Positions 56,407 to 61,596 of a stretch of 63,373 nt of DNA are shown here, one piece after another; the first letter of the stretch is position 1, and each line of letters starts with the position of its first letter. A model generated the notes under the pieces. It did not search any database. It worked only from the letters and a program-made list of their open reading frames with translations, and was not told the origin of the DNA. Position numbers and translations under genes: made by a program. Origin of the DNA: Acidimicrobiia bacterium (lineage in GTDB: Bacteria > Actinomycetota > Acidimicrobiia > IMCC26256 > PALSA-555); contig DASZJD010000021.1 in assembly GCA_035948415.1 (NCBI GenBank), positions 1-63,373 of the forward strand, given 5' to 3'.

Positions 56407-57657
56407 CTACTCCAGGTGCGTGAAGTCGACGGCGAGGACCGTCGCGAAGGGGTCCAGCTCGTCCTCGGGCACCGTCACGACGAGGTCGCCGAGCGGGTCG
56501 GCGTTGAGTCGGTCGAGGACCGACGTCCGAACGACGTGCGTGAGCGGGTGGCCGGATCCCAGCACCGAGACGCGCTCGACCCGCCGGACCGGCACCCCGC
56601 GGACCGTGATCAGCTCGTACGGTCGGAAGAGGAGATGGAGGTACACGCGCGCGCCGCGACGGGTGCTGGGCCCGTAGAACTGCCAGGGCTCGAGCCCCGG
56701 GTCGGTCCCGACGATGCTCTCCGCGTTGGTGGCCATCCATCCGGCGATGGCGTCGAGGCGATCGCGCTGCTCGGCTGGCAGCGCTCCCGTTCCGGTCGGG
56801 CTGACGTTCAGCAGGAGGTTGCCGCCTCGGGAGGCGACCTCGCAGAGCGTATGGACCAGCTCGCGCGCCGATTTGTAGTCGGTGTCGGCCGGGACGTATC
56901 CCCAGCTGTCGTTCATCGTGAGGCAGGTCTCCCACGCGCCCTCGAGGGGCTTCGGGGGCACGAACTGCTCGGGGGTGGCGAAGTCGCCGACCCCGGGGAG
57001 CCGGTCGTTGATGAGGATCCCGGGCTGCAGGTCGCGCACCATCGCCGCCAGCGCCTCGCTGCCCCACCAGTCGGCGGGCCGCTCCCAGCCGCCGTCGAAC
57101 CACAGCAGGTCGATCGTCCCGTAACTCGTCAGGAGCTCGCCGAGCTGACCGCGGAGGAACGCGAGGTATCGGGCCCACCGGGCCGGATCCGGCCGGGGCG
57201 GGGAGAACCCCGGCAGGTAGGGCCGGTCGGAGTCGGTGAAGGCCGGATAGTCGGGGTGATGCCAATCCGAGAGGGAGAAGTACAGGCCCACGCGCATCCC
57301 CTCGCCCCGGACCGCCTCGACCCACTCCCCCAGCAGGTCGCGACCGCAGGGTGAGGAAGCGACCGAGTAGTCGGAGAGCGTCGTCGGGTACATGGAGTAG
57401 CCGGCGTGGTGCTTGGCGGTGAACACCGCGTACTGCATCCCGGCCCGCCGCGCCATGCTCGCCAGCTCGCGCGGGTCGTAGGCGACCGGGTCGAACGTCG
57501 TGGCCGACCGGTGATACTCCTCGACCCCGACCGCCTGGCATTTCGGCAGCGCGAACAGTCCTCCGACCAGCGGCCACGAGAGCTCGAGGCCTTGCGTGCT
57601 GGCGTGGTCCCAGTGGACGAACAAGCCGAACCGGGCGCGGTCGAACCAGCCGGTCAT
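56407..57657 (-). CDS. alpha-L-fucosidase (GH29)
   Basis: Protein of 416 residues starting MTGWFDRARFGLFVHWDHAS, the GH29 barrel N-terminus. AVFTAKHHAGYSMYPT supplies the substrate His pair, and the nucleophile Asp is in DLLWFDGGWERPADWW near residue 186. GNLLLNVSPTGTGALP is also a GH29 marker. It hydrolyses terminal alpha-L-fucose. There is no signal peptide, so a cytoplasmic role on imported oligosaccharides is likely, consistent with the sugar ABC importer elsewhere in the window. Confidence 0.92.
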   Translation of the reverse strand: MTGWFDRARFGLFVHWDHASTQGLELSWPLVGGLFALPKCQAVGVEEYHRSATTFDPVAYDPRELASMARRAGMQYAVFTAKHHAGYSMYPTTLSDYSVASSPCGRDLLGEWVEAVRGEGMRVGLYFSLSDWHHPDYPAFTDSDRPYLPGFSPPRPDPARWARYLAFLRGQLGELLTSYGTIDLLWFDGGWERPADWWGSEALAAMVRDLQPGILINDRLPGVGDFATPEQFVPPKPLEGAWETCLTMNDSWGYVPADTDYKSARELVHTLCEVASRGGNLLLNVSPTGTGALPAEQRDRLDAIAGWMATNAESIVGTDPGLEPWQFYGPSTRRGARVYLHLLFRPYELITVRGVPVRRVERVSVLGSGHPLTHVVRTSVLDRLNADPLGDLVVTVPEDELDPFATVLAVDFTHLE

Positions 57658-57717
57658 CGCGCGAGGACGCTACCGGGTTCCCAGCTAGTGACCGACTGCC
57701 AGCACGCGTCCGCGCGC

Positions 57718-58086
57718 TTACCCGGCGCGGTCGTTGGCGGCTCGATAGCTGCGGTAGACGCCGAGCAGCGCCTCCCGCTGCTCCGGCGACAGGGACGGGT
57801 CGCGCCGGATCGCCGCCTCGGTCTCGCCGTCCGGGGGTGCCTCGGCGTCGACGTCGAGGAACCCGGCCTCGTGGAGCAGCGCGTCCGTGGGGATGTGCAA
57901 GGCACGCGCGACCGCGGTGAGCACACGGACCGAGGGCTCGTGGAGCCCGCGCTCGAGCTGGCTCAAGTAGGGGTTGGAGATGCCGGCACGCTCCGCCGCG
58001 GCGCGGACGGACAGGTTGGCCAGCTCCCGCTGCATGCGGATGAAGGAGCCCAAGGCGCGGGCTCGGGCCTCGTGGTCGTCGGCCAT
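57718..58086 (-). CDS. XRE-family HTH regulator (MLDSR/Rv0474-like)
   Basis: Protein of 122 residues. An XRE helix-turn-helix occupies residues 12-68 (LGSFIRMQRELANLSVRAAA, then ISNPYLSQLERGLHEPS), followed by an acidic linker and a conserved-looking tail LSPEQREALLGVYRSY. From memory this arrangement resembles mycobacterial Rv0474, which lies next to hbhA, and the lipid-droplet regulator MLDSR of Rhodococcus; no alignment was run. It lies 97 bases downstream of the small phasin-like gene and could control it. Confidence 0.88.
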   Translation of the reverse strand: MADDHEARARALGSFIRMQRELANLSVRAAAERAGISNPYLSQLERGLHEPSVRVLTAVARALHIPTDALLHEAGFLDVDAEAPPDGETEAAIRRDPSLSPEQREALLGVYRSYRAANDRAG

Positions 58087-58183
58087 CGAGATCGCTGTCG
58101 GGGTGGGTGGCTTCGAGCCCAGGCAGTGTCGCGCGAAGCGAGCGGCCGCCGAGGCGCCCGCTCGTTTCGGCTTCGGACGTTGT

Positions 58184-58435
58184 TCAGACGCGGACGCGGT
58201 CAGTCGCGGCCACCAGGCTGTTGGCCCACGAGTGGCTCCGGCGGACGATCGCCTCGACCGTTCCGAAGTACCGGTCCACGAGCGCTTGGAGGTCGGGCTT
58301 GACCTGCGTCGCCGCGCTCCGCACCGCGCCCGTCGCCAGCTGGTAGCTGCGGGCGGCGCTGCTGATGAGCTCGACGCGGACCTTCTCGATCTCGTCGAGT
58401 GTCGACTTCACGTAGTCGGGGGCGGGGGCGGTCAT
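58184..58435 (-). CDS. small phasin-like / HBHA-related protein
   Basis: Protein of 83 residues with no Cys and no signal. It is predicted as one or two long amphipathic helices (YVKSTLDEIEKVRVELIS, then VDRYFGTVEAIVRRSHSW). Such short helical proteins coat PHA granules or lipid droplets. A Lys-rich tail like that of HBHA is absent. Neighbouring XRE regulator and wax ester synthase/DGAT genes support a storage-lipid role, but this is inferred. AAGGAG at 58445-58450 precedes ATG 58435 by nine bases, below a near-consensus promoter. Confidence 0.75.
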   Translation of the reverse strand: MTAPAPDYVKSTLDEIEKVRVELISSAARSYQLATGAVRSAATQVKPDLQALVDRYFGTVEAIVRRSHSWANSLVAATDRVRV

Positions 58436-58800
58436 GGGCGGGGGCTCCTTCTCGGCTCGGACACGGCGCCCCGACTCCGGAGCGCCTACTGCGTACTATA
58501 TTACTCGCTGCTAACTATGTCAAGCACTTGGCCGGGGGACCGGCGGGCGCCGCGGGCTCCACCCCACCCCCCTGACACCGGCCCTGGTGTCGGGCGCCGT
58601 CGACGCCTCCCCACCACGGCACCCGCGTGCCGACGCCGGGACCCGAGCCGGATCGGCTCCGGGCCCTTGCTCGGCGCCGCATCCGGTGTGGGGGCCGCGC
58701 CCGCGATCGGGGCGAGGGTGTCGCCTCGCCGCCGCTGGACATAGGTTGGGTCGAGCGGCCAGGGGCGGGGTTGGCGGGTCGCAGCCTGGAGGGGGATTCG
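58436..58800. other. divergent regulatory region of the lipid-droplet locus
   Basis: Spacer of 365 bases between the small phasin-like gene and the wax ester synthase/DGAT gene. It holds the reverse-strand promoter at 58495-58523, in the most A+T-rich patch of the area, and the DGAT ribosome-binding site GGAGGGGG at 58788-58795. A TAGGTT at 58742-58747 may be the forward -10. The rest is G+C-rich without recognisable genes. Confidence 0.55.
58495..58523 (-). promoter_or_regulatory. near-consensus housekeeping promoter of the phasin-like gene
   Basis: On the reverse strand a perfect TTGACA (58518-58523) is followed after exactly 17 bases by TATAGT (58495-58500), five of six matches to TATAAT. 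Transcription would start near 58488, leaving a leader of about 50 bases with an AAGGAG site. The spacer (58501-58517) contains TTAGCAGCGAGTAA, whose TTA/TAA ends could be half-sites for the XRE regulator. Confidence 0.75.
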
Positions 58801-60198
58801 ATGGCACTCGACCGGATGAGCCCGCTCGACGCGATGTTCCTCCACCTCGAGGACGGCGTGAGTCACATGCACATCGCGTCGGTGCTGCTGCTCGACGGGC
58901 CACCGCCGAGCTACGACGAGTTCGCGTCGATGGTGGCCGGCAAGCTGTCGCTCGTCCCCCGGTATCGGCAGGTGGTGCGGTTCGTCCCGCTTCAGCTCGG
59001 CCGACCCGTGTGGGCGGACGACCCACACTTCAACCTCGCCTACCACGTTCGTCACACCGCGCTCCCGCCACCGGGAGACGAGGCCGACCTTCGCCGGCTC
59101 GTCGGGCGCGTCATGAGCCAGCAGCTGGATCGGACGAAGCCGTTGTGGGAGCTCTGGATGGTCGAAGGGCTCAGCGACGGCCGCTGGGCGCTGCTCGCAA
59201 AGACGCATCACAGCATGGTGGACGGGGTCTCAGGGACCGAGCTGCTGACGGTCATGTTCGACGTCGCTCCCGACGCCACGCCTCCCGCGACCGCCGACTG
59301 GGAGCCGGCTCCCCTGCCGTCAGGGGTGGCGCTGGCCGTCGACGCCGTGGCGACGATGGCTCGGAGCTCGGTCGAGCAGGTCCGCGCGCTTCGAGCCGCG
59401 AGCCGAGTCCCGCGTCAGGCGGTCGGGCAGCTGCGCGAGGTCTTGACCGGCCTCGCCGCCCTCGCCGGCATCGTCCCCCGCACGCCTCCGTCGAGCCTCA
59501 ACGGATCGATCGGTCCGCACCGACGCTACGCGTGGGCGTCGACCACGGTCGAGGACATCAAGCGGATCCGGAAGAGCCTGGGCGGCACGTTCAACGACGT
59601 GATCCTGGCGGCCATCACGGCCGGCTTTCGGTCCTTGCTCGAGTCCCGGGGTGAGTCCACGGATCGCGTGATCCGAACCCTGGTTCCGGTGTCGGTGCGC
59701 GGGCGTGACCTGAGCGGACGAGCGGTCGGCGACGGCACCTTCGACAACCGGGTGTCGGCGATGTTCGCCGAGCTCCCGGTCGGCATCTCGGATCCGGTGG
59801 AGCGCCTCGAGCGGGTCAGCGCCCAGCTCGGCGGGCTGAAGGAGTCGAAGCAGGCGGTGGCCGGCGAGGCGCTGACGTCCCTGTCCGGCTTCGCCCCCCC
59901 GATCCTGCTCGCCCTCGGGACCCGTTTGGCGACCAAGGCCGCCCAGCGCAACGTCAACACGGTCACGACCAACGTGCCCGGACCTCAGCTCCCGCTGTAC
60001 GTGCTCGGCCGACGGATGCGGACTGCGCTGCCGTACGTCCCGCTCGGCGTCCAGTGCCGGATCGGCGTGGCGATCTTCTCGTACGACGGCCACGTGACGT
60101 TCGGCGTGACCGGGGACTACGACACCGCTCCCGACATCGAGGTGCTCTGCAAGGGCATCGAAGCGGGGATGGCCGAGCTCCTCCGCGTGGCGGACTAA
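58801..60198 (+). CDS. wax ester synthase / diacylglycerol acyltransferase (WS/DGAT)
   Basis: Protein of 465 residues that joins an acyl-CoA to diacylglycerol or a long-chain alcohol, making triacylglycerol or wax ester. The catalytic HHxxxDG motif is HHSMVDG near residue 138, and the N-terminus LSPLDAMFLHLED-like stretch (MSPLDAMFLHLEDG) is typical. The C-terminal NVPGPQLPLYVLGRRM box is also present. ATG 58801 is supported by GGAGGGGG five bases upstream. It diverges from the phasin-like gene and so likely forms one lipid-storage locus. Confidence 0.95.
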   Translation: MALDRMSPLDAMFLHLEDGVSHMHIASVLLLDGPPPSYDEFASMVAGKLSLVPRYRQVVRFVPLQLGRPVWADDPHFNLAYHVRHTALPPPGDEADLRRLVGRVMSQQLDRTKPLWELWMVEGLSDGRWALLAKTHHSMVDGVSGTELLTVMFDVAPDATPPATADWEPAPLPSGVALAVDAVATMARSSVEQVRALRAASRVPRQAVGQLREVLTGLAALAGIVPRTPPSSLNGSIGPHRRYAWASTTVEDIKRIRKSLGGTFNDVILAAITAGFRSLLESRGESTDRVIRTLVPVSVRGRDLSGRAVGDGTFDNRVSAMFAELPVGISDPVERLERVSAQLGGLKESKQAVAGEALTSLSGFAPPILLALGTRLATKAAQRNVNTVTTNVPGPQLPLYVLGRRMRTALPYVPLGVQCRIGVAIFSYDGHVTFGVTGDYDTAPDIEVLCKGIEAGMAELLRVAD

Positions 60199-60261: not shown

Positions 60262-61596
60262 CTAGCCGCCCTGCAGGTCCGTCCTCAGCTGGACTTGGTT
60301 GCTCGGCTTGCAGTCGAAGGTTCCCGGCTTCGAGGGGTAGAGCCGTTTGAACTGCCCGTTCCGCAGCTGCATGATGAGGAAGCACGGCGACGGGATGTGC
60401 GCCGCGATGTTGGTCGGGCCCCACATCCCGTCCGCGTTGAAGCTCGTGACGGATCGCAGGGCACCGAGCAGGGCCTTGCGGGTGAGCGCGTTGTTGCCAC
60501 CCTGCTTGACCACCGCGTTCACGGCATCCCGGAAGAGCACGGAGGCGATCCACGCGTAGGCGCCGAACCCATCGATCTTGTCCTGGCCGGCGAACTTGAT
60601 GTAGTTCGCGAGCGTCTTGTTCTGCTTGGCCTCCTCGAAGGGAAGCTGCGCGAGCGTGACGTACTGACCCTCGACGTCGGGACCGCCTTGCTGGACGAAC
60701 TTCTTGTCGTAGCAGGGCGAGAAGCAGTCCCAGACGACGGATTGGCGATTGATGCCCTGCAGGTCGGCTTCCTTTCGGAGGTACACCATCGCCGCGAACT
60801 GGCCGGTGCTGAGCGCGTAGTTCGAGCTCTTGTTCTTCATCGCCTGCACGGCCGGCGTGTAGCCCGACTGGGGCGCCGTCGCGGACACACCGATCTCGCC
60901 GTCCGACTTCACGCCGGCGGCCTCGGAGCCGCGGGCGAGAACCAGCTGCGAGACCGCCGCACTCTTGAGGTCGTTCTGGTACACCGAAATCCCGTGGAGG
61001 TTCTTCTTGACCGCACGCTCGAAGTACTTGACGGTCCCAACGTTGGCTCGGTACGTCTGGGGGCGTTGGTCCTTCGTCGTGCAGTCGAGCTGCGAGGGGT
61101 TCACCGGGAACGAGACCGGTGAGCACTGCTCCGCGACCTCGGTGGTCACGATCGGAAGGTCGGGCAGCCCCGTCGCCGCTCCGGCTTGGTCCTTGCAGCT
61201 GACCATGTCGTCCACGTTGTTCAGGAACAGCGCGGCCGTGCCGACGACGGCGAAGTCCTGGCTGCAAGCGGTGATGATCGCGTTGCGCGCGTCACCGGAG
61301 CTGAGGTGCGAGTCGATGAAGTCGACGGCGAGGTGACGCCCCGCCAGGCCGCCGCTCTGGTTGATGTACTGCGCGAACGCCTGCACGGCCGTGGGGGAAC
61401 CACGGAAGAGACCGGGTGCGAGTGGCGTCTCGACGTCCGCCACGACGGCGAGGCGGATGGTGGAGGGAGTGATGCCGACGTCGGTCGCCTGGGGTGCCGC
61501 GCCCTGGTTGGTTCGCAGGGCCGCCGCGGCGGCGGCCGAGGCCACGAGTCCGAGCACGACCCCGAGCGCGATCACCATGATTCGCCGTTGGCGCAC
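60262..61596 (-). CDS. branched-chain amino acid-type ABC substrate-binding protein (LivK-like)
   Basis: Protein of 444 residues with an N-terminal signal (IMVIALGVVLGLVASAAAAA) and a type I periplasmic-binding fold: ITPSTIRLAVVADVETPLAP, then AVQAFAQYINQSGGLAGRHL near residue 68. Family members bind branched-chain amino acids, amides or aromatic acids. No permease or ATPase gene is adjacent, so it is an orphan here. Start GTG 61596, or ATG 61578 which leaves a shorter n-region. Confidence 0.9.
   Translation of the reverse strand: MRQRRIMVIALGVVLGLVASAAAAAALRTNQGAAPQATDVGITPSTIRLAVVADVETPLAPGLFRGSPTAVQAFAQYINQSGGLAGRHLAVDFIDSHLSSGDARNAIITACSQDFAVVGTAALFLNNVDDMVSCKDQAGAATGLPDLPIVTTEVAEQCSPVSFPVNPSQLDCTTKDQRPQTYRANVGTVKYFERAVKKNLHGISVYQNDLKSAAVSQLVLARGSEAAGVKSDGEIGVSATAPQSGYTPAVQAMKNKSSNYALSTGQFAAMVYLRKEADLQGINRQSVVWDCFSPCYDKKFVQQGGPDVEGQYVTLAQLPFEEAKQNKTLANYIKFAGQDKIDGFGAYAWIASVLFRDAVNAVVKQGGNNALTRKALLGALRSVTSFNADGMWGPTNIAAHIPSPCFLIMQLRNGQFKRLYPSKPGTFDCKPSNQVQLRTDLQGG

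Follow-up and report, generated by a model that had tools for sequence, protein, structure and literature searches.

A probable neutral-lipid storage locus in an Acidimicrobiia bacterium, with a two-helix phasin-like protein and a putative promoter-bound XRE repressor beside a WS/DGAT

In an uncultured Acidimicrobiia bacterium, a wax ester synthase/diacylglycerol acyltransferase (WS/DGAT), a phasin-type protein proposed to coat droplets, and a putative local repressor of the phasin-XRE operon lie together in what is probably a neutral-lipid storage locus. To our knowledge, few bacterial lipid-droplet coats are known, and there is apparently one well-studied droplet-titrated regulator. The locus is situated in the window, meaning here the whole stretch of 63,373 nucleotides that was analysed, which belongs to a 98%-complete, 3.4-Mb assembly of 133 contigs. 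It comprises an XRE-family (HTH_3) regulator of 122 amino acids (57718..58086, minus strand; HTH_3 E=6e-14), an 83-amino-acid two-helix phasin-like protein, the proposed storage-granule coat (58184..58435, minus strand), and a WS/DGAT of 465 amino acids (58801..60198, plus strand), which is divergent from the pair. The XRE gene lies on the same strand as the 83-residue gene and 97 bp downstream of it. These three genes had been named in a preliminary description of the DNA, and their coordinates and orientations were all confirmed, together with the HHSMVDG motif of the synthase. Directly 3' of the XRE gene, an alpha-L-fucosidase-like glycosyl hydrolase is encoded on the same strand (56407-57657, minus; PF01120, E=1e-80), with no evident connection to lipid storage, and a periplasmic binding protein gene (60262-61596, minus; PF13458) is convergent with the WS/DGAT gene.

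The synthase carries both domains of its enzyme family, WS_DGAT_cat (PF03007, E=5e-67) and WS_DGAT_C (PF06974, E=7e-30), scores 439.5 bits against TIGR02946 (cut-off 310), and contains PLW at residue 114, the catalytic motif HHSMVDG at residue 136 (59206..59226, plus strand), and NDVILA at residue 265. It would synthesise triacylglycerol or wax ester. The genome encodes three WS/DGATs, and no PhaC was found in the 98%-complete sequence with class I/II (PF07167) or class III profiles; the likely cargo is therefore triacylglycerol or wax ester, stored in neutral-lipid droplets. According to the main text of a study on the Acidimicrobiia, Ilumatobacter, and Ca. Microthrix (PMC10351704), WS/DGATs in these groups have Kennedy-pathway neighbours. 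The enzyme family is the same, and triacylglycerol storage is known or inferred in the related group, whereas that main text mentions neither patatin nor HTH proteins and places its one phasin in a proteobacterial scaffold.

The 83-residue gene starts with ATG and is preceded by the ribosome-binding site AAGGAG, read directly from the sequence (58445..58450, minus strand). Its description as an amphipathic helical protein was borne out, with a hydrophobic moment over the whole protein of 0.287 where shuffled sequences average 0.108 (p=0.004), and an AlphaFold2 model of moderate confidence (pLDDT 76, pTM 0.45) containing two long helices at residues 6-45 and 47-81. The absence of a Lys tail was likewise upheld: the C-terminus reads ...AATDRVRV, and the 83 residues include three lysines. 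Domain searches of Pfam and NCBIfam returned no match of any kind, and the curated phasin models of these databases were matched neither by the window protein nor by 17 aligned relatives. A direct search of relatives with the 83-residue sequence gave marginal matches only, with nothing solid outside its own genome, since family members are short and have diverged. The XRE sequence served as the search anchor instead (46 loci; 76 of 100 genomes), and ORFs at these loci were verified by homology, the gene finder having given shadow ORFs in GC-rich DNA.

With this anchor, small helical proteins encoded on the same strand were found adjoining many XRE homologues. Common to them are an N-terminal helix, a turn containing Pro, and a second helix that follows the pattern P-x-x-x-x-V-x-x-x-F-x-F-x-E-x-x-x-x-x-x-R-x-F. 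A profile of 22 members built without the window protein recovers the 83-residue protein at E=2e-6 as the best of 350 window ORFs (runner-up 0.41), so that the protein combines a profile match, two helices, a same-strand XRE of the HEPSVRVL clade, and an operator palindrome. The family is two-helix, phasin-like, and without a curated name; a PDB search with its profile identified no relative, and literature text searches of partial coverage did not find the XRE-phasin pair described. Since its relatives adjoin the same regulator elsewhere and its promoter carries the conserved operator, the 83-residue ORF is very probably a genuine gene rather than a product of chance. Its product is probably a coat of storage-fat droplets, which would cover the droplet surface in the manner of a phasin.

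Many homologues bear histone-H1-like Lys/Ala-rich tails resembling that of MLDS; no such tail is present in the window protein or in its nearest homologues by synteny (L092, L093, and L097). The tails also bear on another explanation of the pair, in which the small protein is a partner of the regulator, toxin-antitoxin-like or a co-repressor, and the nearby WS/DGAT has nothing to do with the pair. Many type II toxin-antitoxin pairs do consist of a small gene and an XRE gene in one operon, but toxin families in Pfam and NCBIfam are unmatched, the helices are long and amphipathic, many homologues have Lys/Ala tails as in MLDS, and the pair is strongly enriched beside storage synthases relative to the sister clade (see below), all of which make such a partnership highly improbable.

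An unsupervised palindrome search of 22 other phasin promoters yielded TGCgTAnTATAnTAcGCA, and the top two matches to this model in the 63-kb window are 58509-58526 (26.1 bits) and 58490-58507 (22.4 bits), with the third at 6.5 bits. These predicted operators, box 1 (TGCTAACTATGTCAAGCA) and box 2 (TGCGTACTATATTACTCG), are two 18-bp palindromes with centres 19 bp apart. A separate position matrix, derived from the operators of other loci with the window, L092, and L097 excluded, also placed its top match in the whole 63 kb on box 1 (58510-58525, 18.7 bits; next 8.8), so that box 1 ranks first under two separately built models, and its score was reached by none of 100 shuffled windows and by none of 5000 shuffles of the local region. 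A promoter scan of 57600-58900 found a single sigma-70-like promoter directed towards the 83-residue gene (58495..58523, minus strand), TTGACA-17-TATAGT, with 11 of 12 matches (expected 0.0). Its -35 hexamer (58523-58518) falls inside box 1 and its -10 hexamer (58500-58495) inside box 2, and a similar overlap of box and promoter occurs at L004 (TTGACA-17-TACTAT). Some 275 bp separate the start of the WS/DGAT gene from the nearest box, and no separate box for that gene was found. A possible attenuator hairpin between the 83-residue and XRE genes was discarded, its fold being no better than shuffles (z=0.13).

Since the predicted boxes cover both the -35 and the -10 of the sole promoter found, the XRE protein most likely represses its own phasin-XRE operon, and the operators lend support to autoregulation of the MLDSR type. 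In the proposed mechanism, the XRE protein would bind the two palindromes and block RNA polymerase at the phasin-XRE promoter. By analogy with MLDSR (PMC5504291), the appearance of droplet surface would probably titrate the repressor, through either the droplet or the coat protein, and coat output would therefore track surface area. Without a tail, the proposed coat is expected to cover droplets but not to tether DNA.

The system closest in layout is MLDSR-MLDS of Rhodococcus jostii RHA1, where droplets sequester MLDSR, a regulator with two binding sites (operator and promoter), and the tail of MLDS binds DNA (PMC5504291). In both cases, a small XRE protein (126 amino acids in MLDSR, 122 in the window) shares one operon with an amphipathic protein, and palindromic operators stand at the promoter as two adjacent sites, those of the window being predicted. 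The two differ in gene order, which in the window is coat and then regulator, in the box variant, in the placement of the regulator, and in the coat, which in the window has 83 residues, lacks the PAKKA DNA-binding tail, and shows no detectable HBHA/MLDS-like homology. A palindromic box at the regulator's own operon promoter, as expected of an MLDSR/Rv0474-type system, is present, but the window boxes are of the phasin-clade variant. No site in the window matches the published Rhodococcus box with three or fewer mismatches, and the window boxes relate to it only through the model built from closer loci. The canonical type has GCTTGC and the window type GCTWGA, a difference that may set specificity.

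Two clades, separated with 100/99 support, were recovered in a tree of 67 XRE sequences, which is based on a short alignment and omits the named MLDSR and Rv0474 sequences themselves. The first, with the signature RGLRKPSAEIL, holds regulators upstream of HBHA-like genes as well as a regulator located between rsiG-like and mshA genes. The second, with the signature RGLHEPSVRVL, contains the window XRE and has a phasin-like neighbour at 34 of its 36 other loci; one gene stands between the phasin-like gene and the XRE gene at L096 and L098. The window XRE has a long branch (0.81), and its placement inside the phasin clade is weakly supported. The same genome encodes a paralogue of the first clade on contig C96 (10091-10435; L084), between rsiG-like and mshA genes, and this type is present in nearly all searched members of the window's taxonomic family. 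The C96 gene was rejected as a possible second copy of the module, since it lacks a phasin partner and falls in the other clade. It is possibly the counterpart of the HBHA-associated regulator; given also the mycobacterial gene order around mshA, it may, as a lead only, be the counterpart of Rv0474.

When the whole genome was searched by pattern, a single perfect copy of the canonical box came to light, GCTTGCAATAGTTAGC at C1:52316-52331. It shortly precedes an apolipoprotein-like gene (L115:5317-5810) that matches PF01442 at E=1.7e-6, under Pfam's cut-off, and that occurs in 43 of the 61 genomes searched. The box is kept at most loci examined, including those of relatives without a window-type XRE. 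As a second target of the window XRE it was rejected, because such relatives retain it; for the same reason, it is more probably a target of the C96 regulator. The apolipoprotein-like gene itself is a candidate for an unlinked MLDS/HBHA-like coat gene of the order.

These results weigh on the possibility that the pair is a true MLDSR-MLDS (Rv0474-HbhA) system in reduced form, close to what the preliminary description had proposed. Its layout of small regulator and amphipathic protein is the same, the HTH family is the same, and the palindromic box is similar (GNTWGCTNNTGCTANC; PMC5504291). However, the window XRE falls in the sister clade (100/99), the other paralogue is already present on C96, with the canonical box preceding the unlinked apolipoprotein-like gene, and the coat families have no detectable homology: an hhalign comparison of the phasin-like family with an alignment of four HBHA-like proteins aligned 10 columns with a probability of 24%. 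Neither the 83-residue protein as a reduced HBHA/MLDS nor the regulator as an MLDSR-type protein of an HBHA-like gene thus held up, and a search against phasin and HBHA families, proposed as a check, returned no match to the Pfam/NCBIfam phasin models or to the HBHA-like profile. This already disfavoured possibility is very unlikely. HBHA of Mycobacterium and TadA of Rhodococcus opacus (PMC6176652) are also amphipathic helical proteins, and theirs is a tie to lipid inclusions, with inclusion formation by HBHA requiring the Lys-rich tail (PMC6176652); the window protein differs from them in having no Lys-rich C-terminal domain, which counts against the proposed coat role, and no detectable sequence homology.

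The probable storage locus gains further support from its relatives. Around the 36 other phasin-clade loci, WS/DGAT is found at 12, usually with a patatin-like lipase (assigned by PF01734), PHA synthase (TIGR01838-like) at 8, and neither, within the sequence examined around each locus, at 16. In the sister XRE clade, WS/DGAT or PHA synthase occurs at 0 of 30 loci. The enrichment beside storage synthases in the phasin clade over the sister clade is significant with near-copies included (Fisher p=2e-7), as is that for WS/DGAT alone with near-copies removed (p=0.002). The closest synteny is that of L092 and L097, which belong to a different family within the order; it comprises a WS/DGAT of 63% identity, a patatin, a phasin-like protein of 87 or 90 residues, and an XRE gene. 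More distant forms of the locus are present in Acidimicrobiales (L009, L011, L013, L017, L019, L021, L028, and L031). Regulator, coat-like protein, and neutral-lipid synthase thus appear, with the support of these comparisons, to form a recurring locus. The synteny anticipated for the trio holds in these relatives. By count, the small protein across its family lies mainly away from WS/DGAT, an outcome that the preliminary description had named as refuting, though this is not the case in the window's nearest syntenic relatives. The earlier notion of a storage-lipid locus uniting synthase, coat, and regulator is well supported in that the arrangement recurs and the operators agree with it, but the phasin-like family is not specific to lipid droplets, as it also lies beside PHA synthase or neither enzyme.

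A WS/DGAT recurrently adjoins a patatin-like lipase, at L092, L097, and L137-L140 and in Acidimicrobiales at L009, L011, L013, L017, L019, L028, and L031. The patatin gene of the syntenic loci is missing from the window, and a search of the genome turned up no close homologue. By genome search, the close WS/DGAT group (63-65% identity) occurs in six of the order's genomes, none of which belongs to the window's own family, and patatin adjoins it in 6 of 6. The pair was not detected in four of the six; three of these contigs stop in or just past the patatin gene, and the fourth genome (G029, L140), on an intact contig with the same WS/DGAT and patatin, lacks the phasin-XRE pair. Nor was the pair found in the other members of the window's family that were searched. 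This distribution of the close WS/DGAT and the pair across the order and the family suggests a gain of the locus along the lineage of the window. The missing patatin, the G029 locus, and the 16 phasin-clade loci beside neither synthase weigh against the proposed lipid-storage reading.

PHA phasins (PhaP) are small helical granule coats, and the repressor PhaR is titrated by granules. The window pair resembles them in its small helical protein, a proposed coat, in its linked, putatively autoregulatory repressor, and in having family members beside phaC; it differs in lacking any Pfam/NCBIfam phasin match, in a regulator that is XRE and not PhaR, and in a synthase that is a WS/DGAT. At L096 and L098, the order is phaC, operator, phasin-like gene, 3-hydroxyacyl-CoA dehydrogenase-like gene, and XRE gene, the same module in a PHA locus. 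L004 is also a PHA locus, and cultured bacteria with the pair include Ilumatobacter and, in the PHA version, Pseudonocardia eucalypti. The pair could accordingly be a phasin of PHA granules with its regulator, which came to lie beside the WS/DGAT through chance or horizontal transfer without being dedicated to droplets, as the PHA synthase beside 8 of 36 relatives (L096 and L098 among them) and the lack of the pair in other members of the window's family would allow. Against it speak the genome, in which PhaC was not detected, the WS/DGAT of 63% identity adjoining the pair in two other genomes, and the patatin kept beside the close WS/DGAT in all six relatives, and we regard it as rather unlikely.

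The probable neutral-lipid locus of the window is compact, consisting of one proposed 83-residue coat without a DNA-binding tail, one putative repressor, and one 37-bp operator region over a clear promoter. What is new is that palindrome models built without the window match over the -35 and -10 of the 83-residue gene's promoter. The phasin-XRE pair has the appearance of a general module for storage granules, different from the one known in Rhodococcus and mycobacteria. We give an even chance to the broader view that a granule-coat family without a curated name, each member with a promoter-bound XRE repressor, serves PHA granules as well as triacylglycerol droplets throughout the Actinomycetota, parallel to and separate from MLDSR-MLDS/HBHA; if this is true, one cell can carry two granule-surface sensing circuits. 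Since close relatives of the pair lie beside a PHA synthase or a WS/DGAT, they make it possible to ask directly whether a single coat family serves two chemically different granules, and the locus allows one to ask whether the Lys tail, which tethers DNA in MLDS, is an optional add-on.
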